Below are positions 3,119-50,600 of a DNA stretch of 64,000 bases, one piece after another. Source of the DNA: Beroe forskalii (Eukaryota > Ctenophora > Nuda > Beroida > Beroidae). Below the pieces are notes generated by a model. It was not told the DNA's origin, did not search any database, and was given only the letters and a program-made list of their open reading frames with translations. Position 1 is the stretch's first letter. Every line of letters begins with the position of its first letter. Both the position numbers and the translations under genes were made by a program. The stretch covers positions 806,001 through 870,000 of the forward strand of contig WFMF01000019.1 in the NCBI GenBank assembly GCA_011033025.1, given 5' to 3'.

Positions 3119-3243
3119 AGCAACGTAAGTGAGAAGGTAATGATACGACTTGATCGTAAGTGAGAAGGTAATGATACGACTTGACAACGTAAGTGAGAAG
3201 GTAATGATACGACTTCAACGTAAGTGAGAAGGTAATGATACGA
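3119..3243 (+). repeat. Short tandem array, about 31-34-bp unit x 4
   Basis: CGTAAGTGAGAAGGTAATGA followed by TACGACTT is repeated four times with small length differences in the linker. The last unit runs straight into the first unit of the 40-bp satellite. The two arrays share no obvious sequence. Confidence 0.9.
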
Positions 3244-5786
3244 CTAACAGGGGACACTATCAAGTTAACAGAGGACCCTATCACTAACAGGGGACACTAT
3301 CAAGTTAACAGAGGACCCTATCGCTAACAGGGTACACTATCAAGTTAACAGAGGACCCTATCGCTAACAGGGGACACTATCAAGTTAACAGAGGACCCTA
3401 TCACTAACAGGGGACACTATCAAGTTAACAGAGGACCGTATCACTAACAGGGGACACTATCAAGTTAACAGAGGACCCTATCACTAACAGGGGACACTAT
3501 CAAGTTAACAGAGGACCCCTATCACTAACAGGGACACTATCAAGTTAACAGAGGACCCTATCACTAACAGGGGACACTATCAAGTTAACAGAGGACCCTA
3601 TCACTAACAGGGGACACTATCAAGTTAACAGAGGACCCTATCACTAACAGGGGACACTATCAAGTTAACAGAGGACCGTATCACTAACAGGGACACTATC
3701 AAGTTAACAGAGGACCCTATCACTAACAGGGGACACTATCAAGTTAACAGAGGACCCTATCACTAACAGGGGACACTATCAAGTTAACAGAGGACCCTAT
3801 CACTAACAGGGGACACTATCAAGTTAACAGAGGACCCTATCACTAACAGGGGACACTATCAAGTTAACAGAGGACCGTATCACTAACAGGGGACACTATC
3901 AAGTTAACAGAGGACCCTATCACTAACAGGGGACACTATCAAAGTTAACAGAGGACCCTATCACTAACAGGGGACACTATCAAGTTAACAGAGGACCCTA
4001 TCACTAACAGGGGACACTATCAAGTTAACAGAGGACCCTATCAGTAACAGGGGACACTATCAAGTTAACAGAGGACCCTATCACTAACAGGGACACTATC
4101 AAGTTAACAGAGGACCCTATCACTAACAGGGGACACTATCAAGTTAACAGAGGACCGTATCACTAACAGGGGACACTATCAAGTTAACAGAGGACCCTAT
4201 CACTAACAGGGGACACTATCACAGTTAACAGGGACCCTATCACTAACAGGGGACACTATCAAGTTAACAGAGGACCCTATCACTAACAGGGGACACTATC
4301 AAGTTAACAGAGGACCCTATCACTAACAGGGGACACTATCAAGTTAACAGAGGACCCTATCACTAACAGGGGACACTATCAAGTTAACAGAGGACCCTAT
4401 CACTATAAAAGGGGACACTATAAAGTTAACAGAGACCCTATCAACAGGGGGACACTATCAAGTTAACAGAGGACCTATATCACTAACAGGGGACACTATC
4501 AAGTTAACAGAGGACCCTATCACTAACAGGGACACTATCAAGTTAACAGAGGACCCCTATCACTAACAGGGGACACTATCAAGTTAACAGAGGACCCTAT
4601 CGCTAACAGGGGACACTATCAAGTTAACAGAGGACCCTATCACTAACAGGGGACACTATCAAGTTAACAGAGGACCCTATCACTAACAGGGGACACTATC
4701 AAGTTAACAGAGGACCCTATCACTAACAGGGGACACTATCAAGTTAACAGAGGACCCTATCACTAACAGGGGACACTATCAAGTTAACAGAGGACCCTAT
4801 CACTAACAGGGGACACTATCAAGTTAACAGAGGACCCTATCACTAACAGGGGACACTATCAAGTTAACAGAGGACCCTATCACTAACAGGGGACACTATC
4901 AAGTTAACAGAGGACCCTATCACTAACAGGGGACACTATCAAGTTAACAGAGGACCCTATCACTAACAGGGGACACTATCAAGTTAACAGAGGACCCTAT
5001 CACTAACAGGGGACACTATCAAGTTAACAGAGGACCATACCACTAACAGGGGACACTATCAAGTTAACAGAGGACCCTATCACTAACAGGGGACACTATC
5101 ACAGTAACAGAGGACCCTATCACTAACAGGGGACACTATCAAGTTAACAGAGGACCCTATCACTAACAGGGGACACTATCAAGTTAACAGAGGACCCTAT
5201 CACTAACAGGGGACACTATCAAGTTAACAGAGGACCCTATCACTAACAGGGGACACTATCAAGTTAACAGAGGACCCTATCACTAACAGGGGACACTATC
5301 AAGTTAACAGAGGACCCTATCACTAACAGGGGACACTATCAAGTTAACAGAGGACCCTATCACTAACAGGGGACACTATCAAGTTAACAGAGGACCCTAT
5401 CACTAACAGGGGACACTATCAAGTTAACAGAGGACCCTATCACTAACAGGGGACCCTATCAAGTTAACAGAGGACCCTATCACTAACAGGGGACACTATC
5501 AAGTTAACAGAGGACCCTATCACTAACAGGGGACACTATCAAGTTAACAGAGGACCCTATCACTAACAGGGGACACTATCAAGTTAACAGAGGACCCTAT
5601 CACTAACAGGGGACACTATCAAGTTAACAGAGGACCCTATCACTAACAGGGGACACTATCAAGTTAACAGAGGACCCTATCACTAACAGGGGACACTATC
5701 AAGTTAACAGAGGACCCTATCCCTAACAGGGGACATTATCAAGTTAACAGAGGACCCTATCACTAACAGGGGACACAATCAAGTTA
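3244..5786 (+). repeat. 40-bp satellite array, about 63 units
   Basis: The unit is two diverged 20-base halves, CACTAACAGGGGACACTATC and AAGTTAACAGAGGACCCTAT. These resemble each other (TAACAGRGGAC core), so the unit looks like a dimer of an older 20-bp monomer. From about 4560 to 5700 units are nearly identical; toward both ends substitutions and indels accumulate, as expected from unequal exchange in the centre. A GAGGACCGTAT variant recurs near 3440, 3680, 3879 and 4159, hinting at a higher-order period of 5-7 units. No gene overlaps it. It lies downstream of the RABL6 3' end. Confidence 0.97.
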
Positions 5787-17748: not shown

Positions 17749-20700
17749 GTTCTGTCCCAGTCCATCTGCCCTTTTTTTATCATCTATCAGACCTAATCAT
17801 CTGAGCACACAATCACTCAGTAACTGACGACATTAATTTGGTATTGTTTTGCCTTGTGATTGCGTCACACTTTATCTTTCTCTCGCATATATTTCGTCTC
17901 TTTTGAAATATTGCCATTACATTCACCTTTCTTAATTCACAATTACACTCTTATCCCTACACATAGTCCAGTATCGGGAACTTACACATCACTAAGCCTA
18001 CACACCCACATGACCTGCACATGACTAATCACGTGACCTGCGCATAGTCCGACCTACGCTATATTTATAAGCCTTTTACCCTGGTGGTGTGCGCGTGGTA
18101 CCTACACGTGATTAGCTTAGCCATGATTTAGCCTTATTTAGCAATCCCATGAATGTAAGGATTGATTAGGAAAATTTATCCTTAATATACATTGCACTAT
18201 GTCTCTACTGTAATTGACTAACATAATTTTACTCTCATTTTAGTGTGATGACCAGATAGAATTTAATATAGAATCTCTTACACACGTAACTCATTCAGCA
18301 GAGGAACTTCTCTTATCTATGTAAAATACTTTCACTTTCATTATGAATTTTCCAGAATTATAACATAAGTATTAATACCTACAGACCTTATTGAAAATAT
18401 TGTTTTCTCCCTGGCCTGGTTAAGTTATCGAATATAATGACTAGTATAGTACAGGAAGAGCGTGATAGTGCATACGGCTCAGGAGATGATGATAATGAAT
18501 TCTTAAATTTTTATAAGGAAACACTTAATATTAAAGATAATGAAGCAGAAAAACTCATAGATCAGGAAATAGAGGGTCCAGACTTCCCACGAGCATTGCA
18601 TAACAACATGGATAACTTCCAATACTATGATGCAGAAAAATTTAACTCTATAGATTGCAATTCAGAAAACTGTTTCTCGAATATTAATATAAACATACGA
18701 GGCATAGATCGTAATTACCACAACCTTTTGCAGTATCTTGACGCATTACAACATAGATTTGATATTATTGTACTGACTGAATGTCACATAGAATCCAATG
18801 AATATTTCAACGCAGATTTACATAATACCCATATAATTGATGGATATGACAAATTCTATGTTAGATCTTCTATAAAATACGGGGGTGTCATTGTGTACGT
18901 CAAAAAAGAGTGGAATGCAGAGTACCACTATGATCTTACTAAAACTACCAATACACATGATTCAGTGTTTGTTAAAATTAGGTCACCTAAACCCAACTCT
19001 AAAAAGTCGCTATTTGTAGGAGGGTATTACCGGCACTGCAGAGAGGCTGACAAAATTATGTTTACTGATCGTTTCAACTCTGACATTTCTCATAAATCTC
19101 TGCAAAAAAACGATATAATTATTGGAGGTGATTTTAATATATGCTTAATGAAAAGTACTTTTAATTATGACTCTCTGACTTTCCTGAACACCATAATTAG
19201 CAATTGTTGTGAAATTTTAATCTTAAAGCCCACCAGGATACAATACCATAAAAACTCACTGCAAATGAGGTCCACCTCTTTAATTGACCAAATTATCACT
19301 AACTTATTTGAATACGAATGTATTGCTGGTAACCTTTCTTATCCAGATTCTGATCACTATGCAACTTTTGCCATATTTCAGAACTATAAGGGAGATGTTT
19401 CTAACAATACATCGTTGTGTACTAGGCGTAATCTTAAAAATGTTGATGATGAAAAGGTAATTGAAGATTTTAATAATTATAATTGGGATGAACTAATATA
19501 TTTTGAACCTAATCTTGACACTGCTACTGAAAATTTACAAAACAGGCTCATAGAACTATGTGATAAACACGCCCCTTTGGAACAGCTTTCTAATAGAGCT
19601 AGAAAATATGTTAATAAACCCTGGGTTGATAACGAGCTAGCCAATGATATTAGGATGAAAAATATAGCACATAGCACCAAAACCTCGACACCCACGGCTA
19701 TCAATAGGCAAAAGTTTAATGATATGAGAAACCATGTAACTTATGAAACTAGAAAAAGATGAAAAAATACTTTGCCAATTACTTTGAGAAATTTAGGACA
19801 AATTCTAGGAAATTATGGAATGGTATAAACCTGGCACTGGCCCAAACTAATGCTAGAAAGGGCCCACCAGTAGCAATTAAAACTTTAAAGGGGAGTAAAT
19901 GTGAAGGCGATCAAAAAATTGCTAATGAGTTTGCCAATTATTTCCGTAATGTGCCTGGGCAAACTAAGAAGAAAATAGGAACCTATTCACATGATTATAT
20001 GTATTATGTAAACAAATCTCGTAAAATAAATGACTACTTAGAATTAAACGATAGTGATCCTGATGAAGTATGCAAGCTAATCAACAAGTTAGGCAATAAT
20101 AGTAGTCCGGGTCCCGTTCAAGTACCAAATAGTTTCCTAAAAATAGTAGCAAAACCATTATCAGTAATTTTATCTTCTATTATAAATAGATCTATGTTCT
20201 CAGGATATGTACCGAAGATTATGAAGGTAGGTAAACAAACACCGATACACAAGGGCGGGGATATAAGTGTCAAAAACTACCGTCCGATTACTGTAGTAAG
20301 TAGTATAGCCAAAATACTGGAAAAAGTGGTGCGTGAACAAGTAATGAAATATCTTAAAAGGATCAGAATACTTAACAAATGTCAATTTGGATTTAGAAAT
20401 AAACACAGTACTAATCATGCAGTTATAAACTTACTAGAATTAACTCTAGATGGCATGGAACAAGGGCTAAAAGTGGGAGGTGTGTTTCTTGACGTTGCAA
20501 AAGCATTTGATACGGTAAACCATAGGTACTTACTAAGAAAATTAGAGTATTACGGATTCAGAGGCAAAACCCTTATGTGGATGGAATCTTACATCACAAA
20601 AAGGACACAATTTGTTAATATAAGGAATCATAACTCTAATGCGTATGAACTTGATTGGGGAATACCACAAGGTGGAGTGTTAGCCCCTATTCTATTTATT

Positions 20701-23700
20701 TTATTTATGAATGATATAACCAACAGCTCAAATATTTTTGAATTCTCCATTTATGCTGATGATACCTGTCTCACGCTTAAAATTGAATCTGAAAAGTATG
20801 ATGAAACCATGAGGCATGAATTGAAGCATATAGTTGACTGGTTTAGTAGCAACGAGCTCCTACTTAACTTCTCCAAAACTGAATATCTATTATTTTGGCC
20901 GCATTTTAATAAATGCTATGATAAGGGTGAACTTGACCTAACTGATATGCACTCGGCGTTGCCGCAGTTTCTTTTTGAAGATCCATTTCACGAACCAGGT
21001 GATCCCAGTCCTGCTGAATTAAATAAAAAAGGAGAATTTGTCATGCATGAAATTACTAAAGTGTGTCCCAAACTGATGATTGAAGAGTTCATAAGAATGC
21101 CAGATGATTCCCAGATAAATGAACCGTACTATGTTAAGTATCTAGGTGTTAACTTTGATAACAAACTTAAATTTAAACATCACATTAATATATTAAGTAC
21201 CAAAATAAACCGCATTGTTGGAATTTTATGGAAATGTGATCATCTTAACTTACAAATCAAAAAAACCATTTACCATGCTTTTGTAGAGTCCCACTTAAAC
21301 TATGGTATCATGGCATGGGGCGCCCCTTTCGCCAAAAATTTATTAGTAAATAGTAATCCTGAAACTGTTCCAAATATTCTTAAACCACTGACAAGTACCC
21401 AGAATAAAGTTATCAGGGCAATTTTTAGGAAACCAAAATATGATAAAATTACCCAAAATTATACCAGTAATACCCCCTTATATTCGAACTTAGGAGTATT
21501 AAAAATTCGTGACCTCTACTACTTTAATCTCTGCTGCCTGGCATACGACTATTTTTATGATATGGGCTTTCCGGATAAAATAGCGGAAAGCTTTGTCAAA
21601 AGGTCAGATGTATCCTCACAAGTAACTCGTAGAACAAATATTGACCTACACTGTGATACACCCCGCCTATCTTCAACTTTTACTAAACCAAGTACTGCAG
21701 CTTCTCTTATGTGGAATTCTCTCCCTAGTGACTTGAGGTTATTGAAAACTAAACATAACTTTAAAGATAAACTTAAAAAATACTTGTTATCCAGATATGA
21801 CTCTTAGAGTAATTAAATATTGATATTGCTATCTATACTGCAACGATAATATATCTTATTAAGGAAGTCATGTTAATGAAACTCTTCTGATCTAACAATT
21901 TTTACCATATAATCATCATCTCTTGGTCTGTGCAATGTGACGTTAATTTGGGTGCGCTGTACCGGGGAACGCTTCTGTTAGCCAGACGAGCTATTGCGGA
22001 CTCCGGTTACTCACACTTTCATATCACTTTTCACTGTCCACAACACAATTTTTCGAAAATTTCTCATGTATTTACCTTTTATTCTTCTAAAATATATACA
22101 GCCAATTGTTGCAATTGATGAAATTTAACCGCCTATTTATCTCTTGTGACTATTGCTTCGTGACTATTAGACTATTATTCCTCTCTCAAATTGAGCATGT
22201 CTCTATAAAGTGAGCGTGACTTCCCAGGACAAGTTACGTTAGTCCCGGTCTACTATCTCAGACATAGCAATATGTAAACATAGGATATTCTGTTGGAGAA
22301 ATGGACATTATGCGCTACAACAGTGGAGAGTGGACACGTTGCGTAGTGTAGAGTTCACAGGATTTACTGTTTACATTTACTATAGCTTTTACAAGTTTTG
22401 GCTGCTTTTACGCGCATTCTTCTTTGGTATTTTCTGCATAATCATGTAAATTAACGATTCCATTTTCAAAATGGGATATTATTTAATTCTGAATAGGAAT
22501 CGAATAGTTAATAGAAAAAAAAAGTGCTAAAAATCTTAGAAAACCACCAATCACCATATAAACATTCTGAAACCTTCCATCGCATCATCAACAATTCTTG
22601 TAATATTCCGTCTTACTATCATCCACTTCTGCAGAATCAAACAATCGCTCCTGAATCACATGTCAGAAAGCAATAACCACCTCACTCACTCTCACTTGGC
22701 TATGAAGCGGAGTTTGAATCACTGGAAGCAACTCTTTGTATTGCCTTATTAGGCTGTTTAATCATTGTATTATACCCATACACTCAATTGTTAGCTCAAT
22801 CTCTCAATGCGGTATTCAACCGAGTGATATCGTGATTCATTCTAATAACCAAGTCCCATATACGTGGGGCTAGAACCCCTAGCTAGCTCACGTTGCTCAC
22901 CTTTGTACCATAATGATCAATCCTTATAAGCCAAAAAACCTAACCGATTTTTTGTGTTATTTATTGGTAGAACGTTGTGAATAGATTTGAATTTGATGCC
23001 TGTTGTTCTTTATCAATACTTGTGAGGTTACGGTGCCCATCAAACTAAGACTTCAAATGATTAAGTGAACAATGCACAAAGATTTCATTAAAATGACTAG
23101 GTTATGTAGCTGTGAGCTAGCTAGCTTGATTTTATACATGGCCATATAGATTATAGAACATAGACCCAGGTCGAGTGTTGTGTACACATTAAATTTGGTG
23201 AGTGTCACAGCGCATAACATCCAACATTAAAGCGCAGATCATTGAATTCGGTAGTTGTCTATCGCATCATTAGCCAGTGTCATTATAAAATAGAGCAATA
23301 GGCGGGTAAGATGACGTCATTATCATAGCTCAATGTAGTGAGTTGATGACGTCACACCGCCTATTTCTCGTGCGCGGCGATTAGTCAGCGTCATTATAAT
23401 ATACAGCAGGTTGTAAGGGAGAAATAGGCGGATTTGAGTCGTAATTTCACCACTTCAACGCATGATAATGACGCTTATTTCAAACGCCTATTGTGTATTT
23501 GTCAGCTGTATGGGATGGGAGTTGTCATAGTTATTGTAATATTTTATTTTATTATTTATATGGTTGATGACGCATGCGATTGATCTTCGCCACGCCTTCT
23601 TCAGTAGTTCTGCAGTGCTCCCATAGATCTAATAAATTTCATGCGCCACCTGAGATAACCCTTTAATAACTTTTCAGCATTTTTAACACGTAGAGCATTG

Positions 23701-37600: not shown

Positions 37601-40600
37601 CAAAAACTAAAGAACAAGTTAAAAAGTTAAAATAAACAAGTTAAAATAAATAAGTTAAATTTCAGAACAAGTAACAAGTTAAAAGGTTAAAATAAAGTAT
37701 CACTGATGAAATCATCTACTTCACGGACCTACACTAAGAAACTTTATAATTTTCTAGCATATAATGATGAGACAAATACCTGGTGAATGACGAAGATGTT
37801 GAACCAGTCATCCTTGTCATTCTCCGGTCTCAGCACCTTCACTTTCTCGTCTTTGAACATCCGGTGGAGCCTGTGAAAGTGTAAAATAAGGATTTACTTG
37901 TGGAGCCTGTGAAAGTGGGAAATAAGGATTACTACGCCAAATTTATTAGAAATAAAACTATAGTACTGTGCTCTATGTAATGGAGAGCATTCATGAATTC
38001 TTGAATTGCAACATTTTAGAAGCCGCTTTTATGCTTTTAAATGTACCATTTCAATGCACAGAATATGAAAGATCATCCAACACAATTATGCATTCTCAAA
38101 TATTCAAGAGTGTGTAACCTCTCATCCCTGACACTGCCTAGGCCGTAGATAGCTAGTTTTGTAGGGCCCTTCCTTAGAAGAATGGGATGGATTGTGATCT
38201 CTTTCACGGTTGAAGCTTTGCCTGATGGGGATATAATCAGGATATTTTGTTCGTTTTATTGGATCGAATAAATTGAATTAAATGATAAACTCTTGCAAAC
38301 AGTATTAGTTAGTATTTACCTATCCAATATTTAATTCCTTCATTTAGTTCACCCAATCACACTGTTGACTAATCAGCGAGCAGGATTTTAATGATTTGCT
38401 TTATCTAAAATTGCAATTAACCGAAGTAGTTGAGGACTCCACTGGCGCTCAGCATGTCTAAAGCACAGAGGCCTTGGGGCCCGGCGGGGTCATCGTGGTT
38501 ACCATGGATACTGAAGACTGGGATCGCAACATTGAGATTGGGGTCCTCGTAGTTTACTCGCGGAAACTGACTGAAAACATTTCATTTAACCAAGAGGTGT
38601 ACATGCTTACATACATATTACACCCACAACCAAGTGTATACATTGCAAAATCATTCTAAAACGAGTGCAAAGCGAGTCCTGTACAAAGCTTATATATACT
38701 TATATGCTGATTTGATTTTAAGCGATTATGCCTTTTCGTCAACCATCATACAGTATAAAATGTGAAAAATGATAATGAGTAATGAAATAAAATTCACATT
38801 CACCTTCCCTCGAAGTTGACTGTCTGGTCTGACAGGAACTCTATCTGAATGGGCGTGTCCCCGAAGCAGTACTTGCGGAGAAGAGTGGTTGCTTTGTGGA
38901 CAGTGGCGCGGGAGGGTTTGTTGTCGTGGAATAGGTCCCCGCCCAGCAGAATCATGTCCACCTGAGAGATCAATAATAGGAGGGATTGGTACCGTTGCTA
39001 TGGAGAGTGGGTATTCGTTGCTATGGAGAGTTGGTATTCGTTGCTATGGAGAGTGGGCATTCGTTGCTATGGAGTGGGTATCGTTGCTATGGAGAGAGGG
39101 GTACCGTTGCTAAAGAGTGGGTATTCGTTGCTATAGAGTGAGTATTCGTTGCTATAAAGAGTGGGAATTCGTTGCTATAGAGTGGGTATCCGTTGCTATA
39201 GAGAGTGGGTATTCGCACGTGCAGAAAGGGAAGAGTGTACAGTTGAGTAGAGTGGTGAAATGTGTCATACCATATCCCCGATCATTTCTGGGGATATGGT
39301 AGAGGAGGTATATGGCGGAATTGGAAAATATAATCAATTATTTCCCGGAAAATGGGAGAATAGGCGGATTCCGCCAACTAAGCCTTTTATTGTCTTTACA
39401 TGTGTCATGGAAGGGAATTGTGGTATTGATTTCTTGAGATTATTTCACTGATTCCTAATCCCTGCCTAGAAAAAATGCCATAAAACAATAAAAAATACAG
39501 CTAGTACCGATGTAGTCTATTAAAGTATTGAAACTAATAAGGGGTCAATTGACTTATCAATTAAGTGTCCCAGGTCGAGTCAAATAATTGTATTGAAAGA
39601 ATTTTTTCCAATATAAAATTATCGGTTTTGTAGCCAACTTTTAATTAGCCAAGCAATATTGTCTTCTACCAAAGACAAAAGACCCAAAACATCGAAACCA
39701 CTATGTATTACCATTTACTTGTCTAGGCTCCAGGCAAGTCAAGTCTGGACAAAGGAGGAGAGGATGGAGGAATGAGAAAATTAAAAACAAAGCGGAATGA
39801 AAATTTGATAATTAGATGCCCTTGCTGAAAGAATTGTTCGCGTTAATGAGTTTTAAAGTTCTATTGTCTAATTTATAATAAAGTTATAAGATTGGCAACG
39901 TTGGGGCTTTTATTATTATATTCCTTTTAGTTCCAATTTCGGACAGTTATTTTCCTTCGCTTAAATCTTTTCCTCTGCGCACTTTATCACTAGAGCACAT
40001 CAAATCAGTCCTACATACTTTTCATTTGTGGGCTACGACTGGGAGTGACTTTTCTCGGTGTGCCATATTTACTTTTTCTATGATTTGATTCATATGCCCT
40101 GTTGCCAAGCGCTCAGTTATCTTCTGTTTGAACGATATAGAATATTTTCATCTAGTAATAGGGCGTTTCATAATTTCCCAACTAGAGAACTGTATATTGT
40201 TCGGGGTCAAAAGCTATCCTTTAGGACATTAAAAAGTGACAGAAAAAATTTTCAGACGAAAAAATTAATTTTAAGCACGTGCACAGGCCACAGCCATTTT
40301 TACCTGTAAAAATCATGATTTTCGGTAAAATGTTGCCCATCTCTTTTTCTGCTTGAGTTACATATTTCTAAGCTTCCCATCGTGTTTCAAGCGAAATTCT
40401 ATAGGTCAAAAATTTTTGACCTACGACCTTGTGAGTTATCACCGACTTTCATATGCCCATGGGGGCAGGCCAGAACTTTTAGTTTTGGAATTTCTGGAAA
40501 TTATTTTCACTTTTCATTTTTGGGGTAATTAAATCTTTTCTCGTCTGTGCAATTTTCACTTGAACAAATCAGTTCTAGTTGAAACATGTGGGCCATCGAA

Positions 40601-42077
40601 ATGAGCTCATCAAAAATCGGCCTTTTTTGAACATACATACATACTGCCTCATCACTACCTCATCATTTCGAAAACATACATACATACATACCCTAGTGAT
40701 GAGCTCATTTCTGAATGACCCGTAGTATAACCGTTGTCTTATAACGAACTAACCCTAGATTTGATGGCCAGGTAGCGCAGTGGTTAGGGCGTCGTACTTT
40801 CAATCGCGAGGTTGGTGGTTCGATTCCCGGCCTTTTTTCACCGTGCAGGGTGAGAACTCTCACCTAAGCAGCCACACGGTTCACTCAGCCGAGCGTACAG
40901 GAAACTGTGCGGAGGGTTAAATGAGGAGCTGCCCATTGCAGCGAAGTCTCGGGCGAAGAAAGTATATGGATTACACTTCCTTAACCGTCGATTCCTGTCA
41001 TTGCTGCAGCTGTTGGAATAGAAGTAAAACCTTCGAAATAAAAAAAAAATGAAACTGATGTGTACAGTCGCCATATCACTGATGATTCTGGTGGTTGCGA
41101 ACGCCAGAAGCCTACCCCCCATTCCAGAGTACATGGACTATAACCACGACATAGTCCGAGAAAAGAAGGATTTACCCCCGATTCCAGAGTACATGGACTA
41201 TAACCACGACATAGTCCTAGAAAAGAGGGAAATCCCCGCGGAGCGATTTCTTGAATATTTCATCTAAACTACAGTGACTCCTTTCTTCGGAAATACGAAC
41301 ACTGTTAATTCGCTGAATAGAGTAGAGCTTTAAGTAGTTCTTAGTATTTTAGCCTTTGCTTGCCCAAATTTTATATTTTCAAAATGTAGTTGAAGTAAAA
41401 GTTTAGATTTTAATTCTTAACAATTATAAATTACTCATTGTCTTAATTGGTCACCATTTCAAATGTTTTATAAGTTAATTACGATTAAAAAATAGTAGAA
41501 TGACTAAAAATACACTGTATGCTGTCATGATATTGACCCTAGATACTTTCATACGACCAGAAAATCAATCAGTGCAGCACACTGGTGACAAATTCAGCAT
41601 CACAGTCGCTGATTAGTGAATACCTATCGAAGTTTGGACTATGCAAGATTTAAACTCTACAATCTACAGGAACAAGTACCAATCAACTATATTTCATCAT
41701 TTCTGTAATATCAGTTGATGTGCAAACCTTTTGGTGAACAGCATGCTGCAAGACTTCCTCAAATGCAATAAAACTGTCTTCACCCCTAATAGGGTCATCC
41801 TCTGCATACCCAAGGTGGTTATCTGTAGTAACACAACTTAAATTTAACAAAAATATCTAAACATAGATTAAAGATAACAAATACAAAACTTGTGTTTCAA
41901 GTTCAACATCACAGGCGAATCATCAGTTCACTAAAATCTTGTAGAAAAATGGTTCTTCCCATATGGTTAAAATCTTAAAACACCCAACAGTATCTGTGTT
42001 GAAATCGGTTGGTAACCTGTAGCAACTAGAATGGAGAGGGATTCTTCTTCAGGAGGATTCTCATATCCCTCAGACAT
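34653..42077 (-). CDS. MRE11: Double-strand-break repair nuclease MRE11
   Basis: The Mn-dependent exo/endonuclease of the MRE11-RAD50-NBS1 complex. Exons: 42077-42017 (ILVAT), 41822-41728 ([18 protein letters not shown]), 38961-38804 ([18 protein letters not shown]), 38570-38422 ([10 protein letters not shown]), 38221-38119 ([12 protein letters not shown]), 37870-37780 (WFNIFVIHQ), 37535-37392 ([12 protein letters not shown]), 37147-37001 ([13 protein letters not shown]), 36801-36672, 36404-36218, a probable 8-base microexon near 36100, 35877-35809, 35646-35494, 35164-35028, 34877-34653. They sum to 1857 bases in one frame (618 residues; human about 708). All metal-binding motifs (DxH, GD, GNHD, H, GHEH) are intact. 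The last exon is a Gly/Arg-rich GAR segment ([10 protein letters not shown]) ending near TLDAFI, as in vertebrates. Border choices between 36672 and 35877 are the least certain. Confidence 0.95.
35175..35262 (+). repeat. Dispersed repeat, copy 2 (copy 1 at 140-227)
   Basis: It starts 11 bases from the 5' border of the MRE11 exon 35164-35028, so on the minus strand it supplies the intron sequence just before the CTTCTCTAG acceptor. Confidence 0.75.
36370..36480 (-). repeat. Minisatellite in MRE11 intron and exon border
   Basis: GGGGATAGAGTGGTAACTGA and close variants repeat about five times. The array runs from the intron into the exon at 36404-36218, where it encodes [11 protein letters not shown]-type sequence. 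A 24-base block containing TCTAAGCAGTGGTAGCTCAG recurs at 36673. Confidence 0.7.
38988..39215 (+). repeat. Minisatellite, about 23-bp unit x 10
   Basis: TTCGTTGCTATGGAGAGTGG repeats with small changes about ten times in MRE11 intron 2, right after exon 3. Any open frame here is a by-product of the repeat. Confidence 0.9.
39269..39300. repeat. Perfect hairpin, 11-bp stem
   Basis: ACCATATCCCC, ten bases, GGGGATATGGT, in MRE11 intron 2. A half copy of the TAGGCGG element (GAATAGGCGGATTCCGCC) lies at about 39358. The remainder of the intron to 40760 has only CATA microsatellites near 40640-40700. Confidence 0.75.
40764..41048 (+). mobile_element. Full-length tRNA-derived SINE with A tail
   Basis: The head TGGCCAGGTAGCGCAGTGG holds the A box TAGCGCAGTGG (40773-40783), and GGTTCGATTCC (40817-40827) is a perfect B box; the head ends CCCGGCC as a tRNA-like acceptor half. 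A body of about 200 bases (GTGCAGGGTGAGAACTCTC ..., GGATTACACTTCCTTAACC) follows, and the element ends in about ten A residues at 41040-41050. A target duplication was not found. The A tail runs directly into the start codon of the next gene. Confidence 0.9.
41049..41267 (+). CDS. Small secreted tandem-repeat peptide precursor (neuropeptide/hormone-like), nested in MRE11 intron 2
   Basis: 72 residues. [19 protein letters not shown] is a classic signal peptide (basic start, hydrophobic core, A-x-A end). The mature part holds two copies of [15 protein letters not shown], separated by REKKD and followed by LEKRE, so dibasic KK and KR sites bracket the repeats as in peptide prohormones; the tail is [12 protein letters not shown]. 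The two repeats are exactly 60-base DNA units (41111-41170, 41171-41230) with about 37 identical consecutive bases, a recent duplication. Tyrosines lie among acidic residues, a context that permits sulfation (inference). There is no amidation glycine before the basic pairs and no cysteine, so this is not a disulfide toxin or defensin type. The gene is single-exon, opposite in strand to MRE11. I do not recognise a family. Expression is unproven. Confidence 0.7.
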   Translation: MKLMCTVAISLMILVVANARSLPPIPEYMDYNHDIVREKKDLPPIPEYMDYNHDIVLEKREIPAERFLEYFI

Positions 42078-42356: not shown

Positions 42357-44444
42357 TTAAACCATATCAATGTCAGAAAAGTCAAATTTTCCTCTGAATA
42401 AAATTTGTGACTCCCATTGTAAATGTTTCCACCTATCTAAAACATTAGAAACATGCCCCATTTTAATCTCAGGGCTTACAGTTTCAAATACTTGTAGACT
42501 CTCCCATGCACAAACAGAACCTATCTTCAAGCACGTTTCCAAACATTGTCCTTTGTTGAGTGCTGCAAAAAATCCCCCAAGAAATGAGTCCCCTGCTCCA
42601 CTGCTTGATACAACAGAGATATCTCTTGGTGCACGAGGTAGGTAGAGGAGTTCAAGCAGCCCATCTGAAGATAACTGACAGTATAAGACACCCTGCTCAC
42701 CAAGTGTTGTTAATACAGCTCGGTATTTAGTTTTGGTGCACATTATCTGAAGACACCTCAGCATATTGATCACAACCTCTTTCAAATCTTCTGGAACATG
42801 AAATGAAGATGGTAGCTTAAAACATTCTGATGGTTCTGTAAATATCAATGAAAGTTCTGATATATTAGGAGTCACCATTGAGGCCATTCCCAATAATCCT
42901 GATTCAACAAATGTCTGAAATTTTTTTGGAGCAGTTGGTTCAATAACTAATGGTACATTTGATTCCGAACATTTCTGAGCAACACTTAATGCTGTACTGA
43001 GTGGAATGTCGCAATCTATGATTACATAAGAAGAGTCTTGGATGTCTGAATCTGAAATTAAATCTTCAATAATATGGGAATGCGATGAAAAGTCACAAAC
43101 ACCACCCAGCACATTTCCACTTTTGACAAGTAACTGAGCCACAGGAGTTGATACCCCTTCTATGACTTCAATTTGATTAGTGACCATACCAGAGTTACCA
43201 CAAAGCTCAAGAGCCATTTTTCCAAGCTTGTCATCCCCAACGATACTAATTAATGAGCTAGATGTACCACACCTTGTGAGACATTCAGCAACATTGCGTC
43301 CAACACCTCCCACCACATGATTTATAGACCCATCAGCTAAGTCTTTCCCAGCACTTACTTCACTTAATTTGGCACAAACAATGTCAACGTTAATGGCACC
43401 AACCACAAGAATCCTTTTTTCAGTGACTTCGTTTTTATCTGAGAATAGAGGTTTATCTTTGTGTAAGAGATTTGCCAATTCAGAGGCAATCTTACTGCCT
43501 ACTAACACATTATTATTGACTAATGCCAAATTTGTTTGTAATGACCGACCATCAGTCAACTCAGATACTCTTCCAAGCAGGAATGGGGTAATTGCATGCC
43601 CATTAACATTTTGTTGTTCGGCTTCTTGAAGGGCAATTGATATTGCAGATTCTATTTCTAAGCCATCTGTAGCATATTCATTTGGAATGGGGACAGCAAT
43701 AATAATTCCAGAGTTGAGCTTCAATTTTTTGTTGGTTAATATCAATTCAGCTGCCTCTTTAGCATCACAGACATTTGTATGGGAAAAATAGCCACTATTT
43801 GCTGTAAAGAAAGCAGGAAATTCTCTTGTTTTTCCAAATGTAGCAACAGTAACTCCCTGTGTTTCTAAAACCTCAAGTGTCCTAGGTATATCAAGAATAG
43901 ATTTGACACCAGCACACACCACAGTGACAGGAGTTCTTCCTAATTCTGTAAGATCTGCACTGATATCAAGGGTATCTTGTCCACCACGGTGCACACCACC
44001 AATCCCTCCAGTAGCAAATACATCAATGTTATGCTGGTGAGCTAAGAGCATTGTTCCACTTACTGTTGTCCCACCAGTAAGAAGCTTTTGGATGGTAGGT
44101 GCTAAGTCTCTCCTAGATATTTTGACATAGTTCCTATCTCCATTTGATATATATGCAAGTTCTTCATCAGAAAGACCAATTTTAACTTTCCCATTAATGA
44201 CACCAATAGTTGCAGGAGTTACTTTTTCATTATGGCATATCTGTTGCACATTTTTTGCCATTTCAAAATTATATGGTATTGGTAGGCCATGTGTAATGAT
44301 AGTTGATTCTAAAGCAAGGACAGGAGCTTTTTTCTGTAAAGCTTGTGACACTTCATCAGATAAAAATGTATAGATATGCCTCGAAATATTTTTCTGGAAA
44401 ATATTTGGTGGCCACCTTATTTTTCTGGTCACCATATTGATCAT
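42357..44444 (-). CDS. Pseudouridine-5'-phosphate glycosidase / PfkB carbohydrate kinase fusion (695 residues)
   Basis: A bifunctional enzyme for pseudouridine breakdown: the kinase half phosphorylates pseudouridine and the glycosidase half splits pseudouridine 5'-phosphate to uracil and ribose 5-phosphate. Residues about 35-330 are PsuG-like (LALESTIITHGLPIP, TGGTTVSGTMLLAH, FATGGIGGVHRGGQDTLDIS, VVCAGVKSILDI with the catalytic lysine, ANSGYFSH). Residues about 345-690 are PfkB-like (ILVVGAINVDIVCA start, GGVGRNVAECLTRCG, and the SSGAGDSFLGGF anion hole with the catalytic Asp). The basic N-terminus (MINMVTRKIRWPPNIFQKNI) could be a mitochondrial presequence. The gene is intronless, complete, and ends 280 bases upstream of the MRE11 start on the same strand. 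Such fusions are known in several invertebrates and fungi; mammals lack them. Confidence 0.95.
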   Translation of the reverse strand: MINMVTRKIRWPPNIFQKNISRHIYTFLSDEVSQALQKKAPVLALESTIITHGLPIPYNFEMAKNVQQICHNEKVTPATIGVINGKVKIGLSDEELAYISNGDRNYVKISRRDLAPTIQKLLTGGTTVSGTMLLAHQHNIDVFATGGIGGVHRGGQDTLDISADLTELGRTPVTVVCAGVKSILDIPRTLEVLETQGVTVATFGKTREFPAFFTANSGYFSHTNVCDAKEAAELILTNKKLKLNSGIIIAVPIPNEYATDGLEIESAISIALQEAEQQNVNGHAITPFLLGRVSELTDGRSLQTNLALVNNNVLVGSKIASELANLLHKDKPLFSDKNEVTEKRILVVGAINVDIVCAKLSEVSAGKDLADGSINHVVGGVGRNVAECLTRCGTSSSLISIVGDDKLGKMALELCGNSGMVTNQIEVIEGVSTPVAQLLVKSGNVLGGVCDFSSHSHIIEDLISDSDIQDSSYVIIDCDIPLSTALSVAQKCSESNVPLVIEPTAPKKFQTFVESGLLGMASMVTPNISELSLIFTEPSECFKLPSSFHVPEDLKEVVINMLRCLQIMCTKTKYRAVLTTLGEQGVLYCQLSSDGLLELLYLPRAPRDISVVSSSGAGDSFLGGFFAALNKGQCLETCLKIGSVCAWESLQVFETVSPEIKMGHVSNVLDRWKHLQWESQILFRGKFDFSDIDMV

Positions 44445-47628: not shown

Positions 47629-50600
47629 TTAAAAACTATTCAACCTCTCCTCGTGTCTAGCTAGACTTTCGAGAGTTTTCTCAACACTGAATGGTTCAAC
47701 TTCACCAGTCAAACTACGTGGATCCAATACGCGCTTACCGGTTCTAGTCTGTTCAGCGCATTCAAACTTTATTTCTTGGATTTCTTCCACGTCGACTGGG
47801 ACTTGGAGTTCTGTTAAAGGTGCATTTTTCGAAGTGTGTTTGATAAGAGAACTTTTACCTTCTGGTTCTCTCGTCACAGGTTTGGACTGCAGTTTTCTCA
47901 AGCGTTTCGATCGCAAAGTTGAGCGTTCATCTGTCTCAGGATCTGGGTGCCTCCTGAGAAAAGGAAACAGTATTACCATCGGGATTGCATACTGATAGTG
48001 ATACAGCATGTTGGATAATCCAACATGCTGTATCACTATCAGTATGCAATCCCGATGTGATCATTTTCCATGATCAAGGCTGATTTGTCATTTGATGAAT
48101 CATTGAAATTGAATCAACTAGCTGACTAAGGAAATTTATACAGAAAGGACAAAACTTCCGGCAGGCCATAAAATTAAGGATTATAAATTCAAAGGAAAGG
48201 AGGACAGGTGGCGTCTGACACCTGCTTCAGACACGTTGCTAAATGCCGCATATCTGACTGTAATTTCTAGATTTTATTTTTAGCAACCTGAAGGAGCCAC
48301 AGGACGAGATAGGAATGTATAGATTAAATCAGAGAACCTTTGATAATCGATGATAAATATGATGATGCCATCAGATATTAGTGTGCTCACTATCATAACT
48401 ATTGGGCAACCATTCAAGGGCATCCTAATTCCTGAGATGTGTGAATATTCACAATAAGTATTGGGTTGTATTCTTGTATTCCTTTACCAACCTTTTCGCG
48501 TTTCTGTTGAGTATCTGCAGAGACATTGGAGTCCCACTTCCCACCCCCACACTGCCCCCGCCCCCCACCCCACTATCCCTCCTCCAGGAATCTATCCGTT
48601 CTTTGAGGGATGTGTGGTAGAGGGGACCGTGATCTGTCCCATTGAAGACCACCCCGGTGAAGGGATCACTGCTCTCTCGTCCCCATTTTAGTTCTTCCTT
48701 TCTGTGCTTGTCTAATGTACTGGAACGTGCATCGGATGAGGTCATAAGTTTTCAAGTTTTCTGTTTTTAGTTGAATTTATGCTTTTAATTTTGATCGAGT
48801 TGTTTGCAGGATTATTTGGTACAGACTCATTTGATAAATTCGCTGAATTAAATTCAGAAAAAGTTCCGATTGAGTTTGACAGCAATCTACTTGTTCAAAA
48901 ATTAATCAAGAAAGATGAGGAAAATACAATTACATTTCATGATGCAAAATAATTTCATTGATACAATATTTTTCACAGTCAAATCATCCCAATCTCTACC
49001 ACTCATAAGTATCAGACTGCATCACACTGATCAGTCCATTTCCCATATCGACACACTTCTGGAACTCATCTCTGATGACCTGAATCCCATCTTTCGCTGT
49101 ATAATCCTGGTACATATCATGTAACATCTGCATGCAACTCACCACCGGATCCCTGCTGAAACACACCTTCTGGTCCGTGGTCGCGTGGAGTCCCAACACG
49201 TGGGCCCGTGGGTATATCTCAGAGTTAAACTTCATCTTGCTCGGGATGGTCCGGATTTCTCCCTTGCAGTCCAAGTGAAGGATCACGTCCACCAAGGTAT
49301 GGCGGACGCTGTACCTGTCAATAGCTACCAAGATAAGGGCGGCTCCAGGGGGCGTGAACTCGATGGAGTTGACGGTCATGGCTTCTCTATCAGGGAAGAA
49401 TGTCTTCGTTACCTTGCTTTTAAAGACGTGATCATGACCCTTTCCCAAAGCCACACCATCCAGAACTCTAGCTTTGACAGGGAGATCAGAGTCAGTAAAG
49501 AATCGGTAGGGGGCGTCTATTTCCAGTTCCTTGGAGAGGTACCAGTTGATCTCATCCTCCATCAGTGGTCCGTCCGTAGCAACCCTCACAACCTCCGTCA
49601 GAGGCTCGAGATTCCCAACTTCCAGGATTCCCCTGTCTCGGATGGTACAGGAAGCATCAGTCACCAGCTCCACAACTGTCGTGTGATTGTATACAGGAGT
49701 TATGTCAATCAGGGAGGTCTCAGGAACTTCTACCCTAGTCAGTCTGCACCGCTCCTTGAGCAATTTCCCCTGACACATGGGTCTGAGAGAGGAGGCATCT
49801 GCTCCTAACCCCACCCTCCCCACTCCAGCTCTCACCACATTCCTCTTGCCGGAGAAGTGGGCGTGTTGGTACAACTCCCAGTCCCCAGCCTCCGCAAGCA
49901 CTTCAACAATCCTATCATCCCACTCCCCCAGATTCTCAACATCCACAAAGTACTCCTTGGACCGTCCCTGCGCGTCAAACGCTATCAGCTTTGCTCGCTC
50001 CGGATCCTTGGTGTATTTGCAGATGGGACGGACGGAGTTCAGTTTGTTATTCCCAGCACTCTTCTGGAAGAGGAAGGACGCCGCAGCGGTGATAGAGTTC
50101 AGGACCTGTCCCTCGGTTATGACGAACCGGCGTCCGTCGTACCAGTTTTCCACGTACATCTCCCAGTCGCCCTCAATGGCTTCAGCGCTGGAGATCCGGT
50201 TTGTGAAGTCGATCTCAGCGAGTTTAGGCATGGGTCCCGTTATCGTGCGGTTCTCTCGTTCTAGGTTCCGACCGGAGTAGACCATCAGGAGGTAGGCTTG
50301 GGTGGTTGTAACCAGGGTGAGGAGCAGGAAGATGCGAGATAGCATCATGTTATGAGGGGGATGTAGCACAGATTCTTTCACGTGGGATTTAGTAGTGAGT
50401 AGTAACGCTAGCAACGTGGAATATGAAAAGTGTTGGTAAGGAATGTTTGTTGACGTGGTGGCTAGAAATCACTGTTTATTTGTTTGTAGAATGCGATATG
50501 GTGGGTAATTCTTACTGCCAGTCAAAACAAGCCCCATTTAAGCCAGTAGGGATGCAGAGACCGAATTGACTGGATTTAAACCTCCTGAGTATTCTAATAA

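Follow-up and report, generated by a model that had tools for sequence, protein, structure and literature searches.

The closest described systems are the precursors of short secreted peptides in cnidarians and the phoenixin and nesfatin precursors. Antho-RPamide-1 of sea anemones (LPPGPLPRPamide) is a short linear peptide from a secreted precursor, and its initial L-P-P also opens the 15-residue core that is repeated in the candidate precursor considered here, a 72-aa reading frame on the plus strand (PMC7523074). Antho-RPamide peptides are short, amidated through a glycine-basic site and free of acidic residues, whereas the predicted peptides of the candidate have no such glycine, span 17–19 aa and contain several acidic residues (PMC7523074). 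The cnidarian FHIRamide-type precursors, whose neuropeptide status is doubted by the authors themselves, carry repeat peptides of 14–19 aa with internal acidic residues, as does the candidate, but they also possess a C-terminal amidation signal and an FHIR motif, both of which the candidate lacks (PMC7523074). The phoenixin (SMIM20) and nesfatin precursors, which are broadly conserved across animals, share a signal sequence and dibasic sites with the candidate; they differ in being single-copy, in their broad conservation, which for phoenixin extends to intron positions, and in having no resemblance to the 15-residue core (PMC9004410).

Compared with most established cnidarian neuropeptides, the candidate peptides are longer and more acidic, in a host that may not itself be a cnidarian (PMC7523074). 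The locus is best described as a plausible candidate, not an established gene, for an acidic, unamidated multi-copy secreted precursor, a description that is drawn from sequence. An assignment to the amidated cnidarian neuropeptides (RPamide, RFamide, GLWamide) was rejected for want of the amidation glycine, the residues before the basic sites being RE (before KK) and LE (before KR). Unamidated acidic peptides exist in other phyla.

Position and anatomy of the 72-residue frame

The window, meaning the whole 64-kb stretch of DNA that was analysed, contains the frame antisense to MRE11, within an intron at 38962–41727 (2,766 bp, phase 0). The host gene, which we take to be an animal-type MRE11 from phosphodiesterase motifs characteristic of the family, has a coding exon on either side of the frame and on the opposite strand, in agreement with the nesting proposed in the preliminary description. 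The translation of the frame is likewise exactly as had been proposed. The features of the locus are as follows:

38804–38961, minus strand: MRE11 coding exon downstream of the host intron, which it flanks
40766–41049, plus strand: tRNA-derived, SINE-like element, its 3′ boundary inferred
41049–41267, plus strand: 72-aa reading frame, intact with an ATG start, candidate secreted peptide precursor
41049–41105, plus strand: signal-peptide-like region of 19 residues, predicted cleavage after residue 19 or 21
41112–41171, plus strand: repeat unit 1, 20 residues, from Tandem Repeats Finder (TRF)
41163–41168, plus strand: dibasic site KK, preceded by RE and not of the furin form RX(K/R)R
41172–41231, plus strand: repeat unit 2, 20 residues, from TRF, with 5 bases different from unit 1
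41223–41228, plus strand: dibasic site KR, preceded by LE
41229–41264, plus strand: C-terminal tail of 12 residues, not demonstrably a third repeat
41484–41489, plus strand: ATTAAA, a weak possible poly(A) signal in an AT-rich region that may well be chance
41728–41822, minus strand: MRE11 coding exon upstream of the host intron, with MRE11 phosphodiesterase motifs

An in-frame stop lies upstream at 41025–41027. The length of the frame is ordinary, since open frames of 70–100 aa are also present nearby, and two frames on the minus strand across the same stretch are likewise open for more than 90 codons. Elsewhere around the host gene, a 22–23-bp tandem array (38993–39215) lies some 30 bp away from a splice acceptor of MRE11 and makes repetitive, evidently spurious ORFs, and an intronless 695-aa frame encoding a fusion of Indigoidine_A (pseudouridine-5′-phosphate glycosidase type) and PfkB kinase lies just upstream of MRE11 (42357–44444, minus strand).

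The product begins with a signal-peptide-like sequence whose hydrophobic core reaches 3.26 on the Kyte-Doolittle scale. A von Heijne-type weight matrix, modelled on the 1986 eukaryotic table, scores cleavage behind residue 19 at 4.6 and behind residue 21 at 6.9, the latter value supporting the N-terminal signal peptide that is expected of the multi-copy precursor class. As a positive control, the same matrix scores 9.8 on the secreted-type beta/gamma-crystallin gene of the window (48996–50348, minus strand), a single long open frame that starts with a strong signal peptide and encodes a beta/gamma-crystallin domain. Were translation to start at Met4 instead, the signal sequence would still be usable. 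AlphaFold, run on the single sequence, places a helix at residues 2–20 of the 72-aa product and leaves the chain disordered beyond it, a model that, made without an alignment, does not discriminate between readings. The secreted part contains no cysteines.

Independent detection with TRF returned a repeat at 41113–41230 with a period of 60, 2.0 copies and 94% matches. The true repeat unit is 20 residues (60 bp), consisting of the 15-residue core followed by [RL]-E-K-[KR]-[DE], with identity confined to the core. Basic cleavage sites bound the repeated peptide as in multi-copy precursors, KK and KR standing at the unit ends. The proposal of two copies of a 15-residue peptide, each followed by a dibasic site, is borne out as regards the core; since only the core is identical, the predicted products are instead 17–19 aa long and differ on their C-terminal side. 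The units are indeed nearly identical, as had been noted, although the second copy can be called recent only in a relative sense, given that 5 of 60 bases differ. Treating the tail as a third repeat was unsupported by shuffling (tail against unit, p=0.69 for DNA and p=0.06 for protein). A furin-type growth-factor precursor was also rejected, the available sites being REKK and LEKR in place of RX(K/R)R.

The distribution of the five differences is suggestive of constraint on the 15-residue core. Both differences within the 45-base core are silent (CTA/TTA and CCC/CCG), while all three replacements (R/L, K/R and D/E) fall in the five-codon linker, where the dibasic pair is retained and the K/R and D/E exchanges preserve basic and acidic character. 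Under random placement, the chance that all five changes are silent or in the linker is approximately 0.012–0.013, a value that rests on five substitutions in a within-gene comparison and was calculated post hoc. Gene conversion acting on the core would leave a similar pattern.

If the frame is expressed, which together with secretion, cleavage and a signalling role is predicted from this layout, signal peptidase would cut after ANA (or ARS), and cleavage behind KK and KR would fall to a protease of the prohormone-convertase type. A carboxypeptidase would then trim the basic residues to leave ends in VRE and VLE, releasing two acidic peptides of 17–19 aa that share the 15-aa core, along with the 12-aa tail. 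Aminopeptidases would be expected to halt at the L-P-P start, the tyrosines that follow Glu and Asp could be sulfated, and the released peptides may act as extracellular signals.

Chance expectation and the SINE-like element upstream

It is unusual for one frame to join a signal peptide to two dibasic sites, and the anatomy is better than chance. The window holds 56 ATG frames of 60–150 aa, against 43–48 expected in Markov sequence, and the 72-aa frame is the sole one among them to combine a signal-peptide-like start with at least two dibasic sites. Frames with its signal peptide score and two dibasic sites are expected at 0.027 (order-2) or 0.040 (order-4 Markov) per 64 kb, and the window has one; this expectation offers guidance without the standing of a formal p-value, since the thresholds were fixed after seeing the query, and KK and KR are not independent, one site having been copied from the other. 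The claimed layout of a neuropeptide or hormone precursor stands as multi-copy secreted precursor anatomy; the designation as neuropeptide or hormone stays conjectural, and the product has no amidation glycine.

A codon-usage score trained on 2,756 codons from genes in the window fails to tell the frame apart from non-coding sequence: 27% of non-coding ORFs equal or exceed the score of the 72-aa frame, and 25% of chunks taken from real genes score at or below it. Tandem repeats are common in the window (43 TRF rows), and other repetitive ORFs occur nearby, for example at 38889–39113. Separate from the locus is a 40-bp satellite at 3243–5786 with approximately 64 copies and 97% matches (ACTAACAGGGGACACTATCAAGTTAACAGAGGACCCTATC). 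Mobile sequences are represented by a non-LTR retrotransposon at 18437–21807 (plus strand), in which the Exo_endo_phos endonuclease and RVT_1 reverse transcriptase frames are both open, and by an 81-bp near-perfect palindrome (98.8%) at 47977–48057 that is possibly a young MITE-like element.

The SINE-like element immediately upstream was absent from the preliminary description. Its tRNA-like head (40766–40832, plus strand) contains an intact A-box and B-box, the sole such pair in the window, and aligns locally to tRNA-Arg, -Lys and -Glu sequences with scores of 59–64, against maxima of 44–48 in 300 shuffles. Neither ARAGORN nor Rfam called this stretch a tRNA, which fits a SINE head and not a working tRNA gene; an Rfam match to plastid ycf2, antisense on the tRNA-like stretch and far below the gathering score, was rejected. 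An A-run at 41040–41049 closes the element, and its final A is the A of the ATG of the 72-aa frame. The 3′ end is placed tentatively, because the window contains no second copy and no clear target-site duplication; if this placement holds, the SINE would have contributed the leader of the frame and possibly its start codon. The SINE-like element, which fills the 280 bases before the frame and has an A-run that forms the ATG, makes it less likely that the frame is an old gene under a promoter of its own.

Relatives and competing readings

Relatives were sought in Pfam, PDB, phage and viral, plasmid, prokaryote and literature sets, which are free of animal genomes, and it is within these sets that the proposed label of undescribed applies. 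Pfam returned no families up to E=10 for the 72-aa frame, and the PDB matches were to LRR and SET proteins (E=0.1–9) and, in a phmmer search with the 20-aa unit, to STAM-binding protein alone (E ~6), all judged chance. The best match in the phage collection had E=6, a DNA search of plasmids gave no match, the GTDB genome contigs (84,980 prokaryote genomes) contained no relative, and no paper turned up when the full text of the literature was searched for the peptide sequence. A 39% match among IMG/VR viral contigs (L001) was rejected as chance, as it belongs to a phage-like ORF that shares an EKKDLPPI stretch. The SINE body gave a single 20-base match (L002), also judged chance, while the tRNA-like head, the 40-bp satellite and the palindromic element gave no matches, the genome contigs having been searched with the palindrome only. 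A bacterial promoter and terminator scan of the window was set aside as irrelevant to a eukaryote. Precursors of small peptides are fast-evolving, and annotation routinely overlooks them.

We put the probability that the frame is a real multi-copy secreted precursor of signalling type, a small gene antisense within the MRE11 intron, at a little under one half (roughly 0.47). The intact frame with dibasic sites at both unit ends, its rarity under the Markov nulls, the silent core changes, the predicted disorder after the signal helix, a secreted part without cysteines and the lack of any known domain count for this precursor reading; the neutral codon usage and frame score, the frequent tandem repeats that make other repetitive ORFs in the window and the absent amidation glycine count against it. 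A rival is a chance frame, in which a non-coding intronic 60-bp tandem duplication happened to have a period that is a multiple of three and took its ATG from the SINE-like element, a reading that is quite possible without being the probable one. It is consistent with the neutral codon score, the 56 ORFs of similar size, the many tandem arrays, the open minus-strand frames, a start codon that adjoins an A-run and a SINE-like element and the lack of relatives in collections that contain no animal genomes, but chance would seldom pair a signal peptide with two dibasic sites (0.03–0.04 expected per window), and the repeat with its silent-core pattern (~0.013) makes pure coincidence less likely.

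Other readings accept a secreted product or its ancestor. The same repeat anatomy and the lack of an amidation site would suit a real secreted peptide gene without a signalling role, for example one whose acidic linear product serves in defence, adhesion or protease inhibition, with KK and KR as maturation sites or linkers, and peptides that exceed typical cnidarian neuropeptides in length and acidity (PMC7523074) point the same way. We consider this unlikely, as the absence of cysteines and of cationic character after processing does not match the usual toxin or antimicrobial layout, and phmmer of PDB with the unit gave chance matches only. In blood feeders, acidic Tyr/Pro peptides from repeat precursors are known to bind the thrombin exosite. 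It is more improbable still that the frame is the degenerate remnant of a once longer or more repetitive precursor gene that the insertion of the SINE-like element separated from its promoter: the adjacency of that element, the mere two copies and the weak protein-level similarity of tail to unit (p=0.06) would fit such a history, but the frame is intact and without stops, and Met1 and Met4 both retain a usable signal sequence.

Within the signalling-precursor reading, a fuller version may be advanced as a long shot, that of an expressed lineage-specific signalling gene of an early-branching animal, encoding tyrosine-sulfated, unamidated LPP-peptides, with a promoter or leader contributed by a tRNA-derived SINE in the MRE11 intron. 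Should the frame prove spurious, it would caution that a tandem duplication beside a SINE can mimic a prohormone. If the signalling-precursor reading is true, the locus would encode an orphan signalling peptide beyond the reach of homology searches, and its two-copy state would show tandem duplication giving rise to multi-copy precursors.
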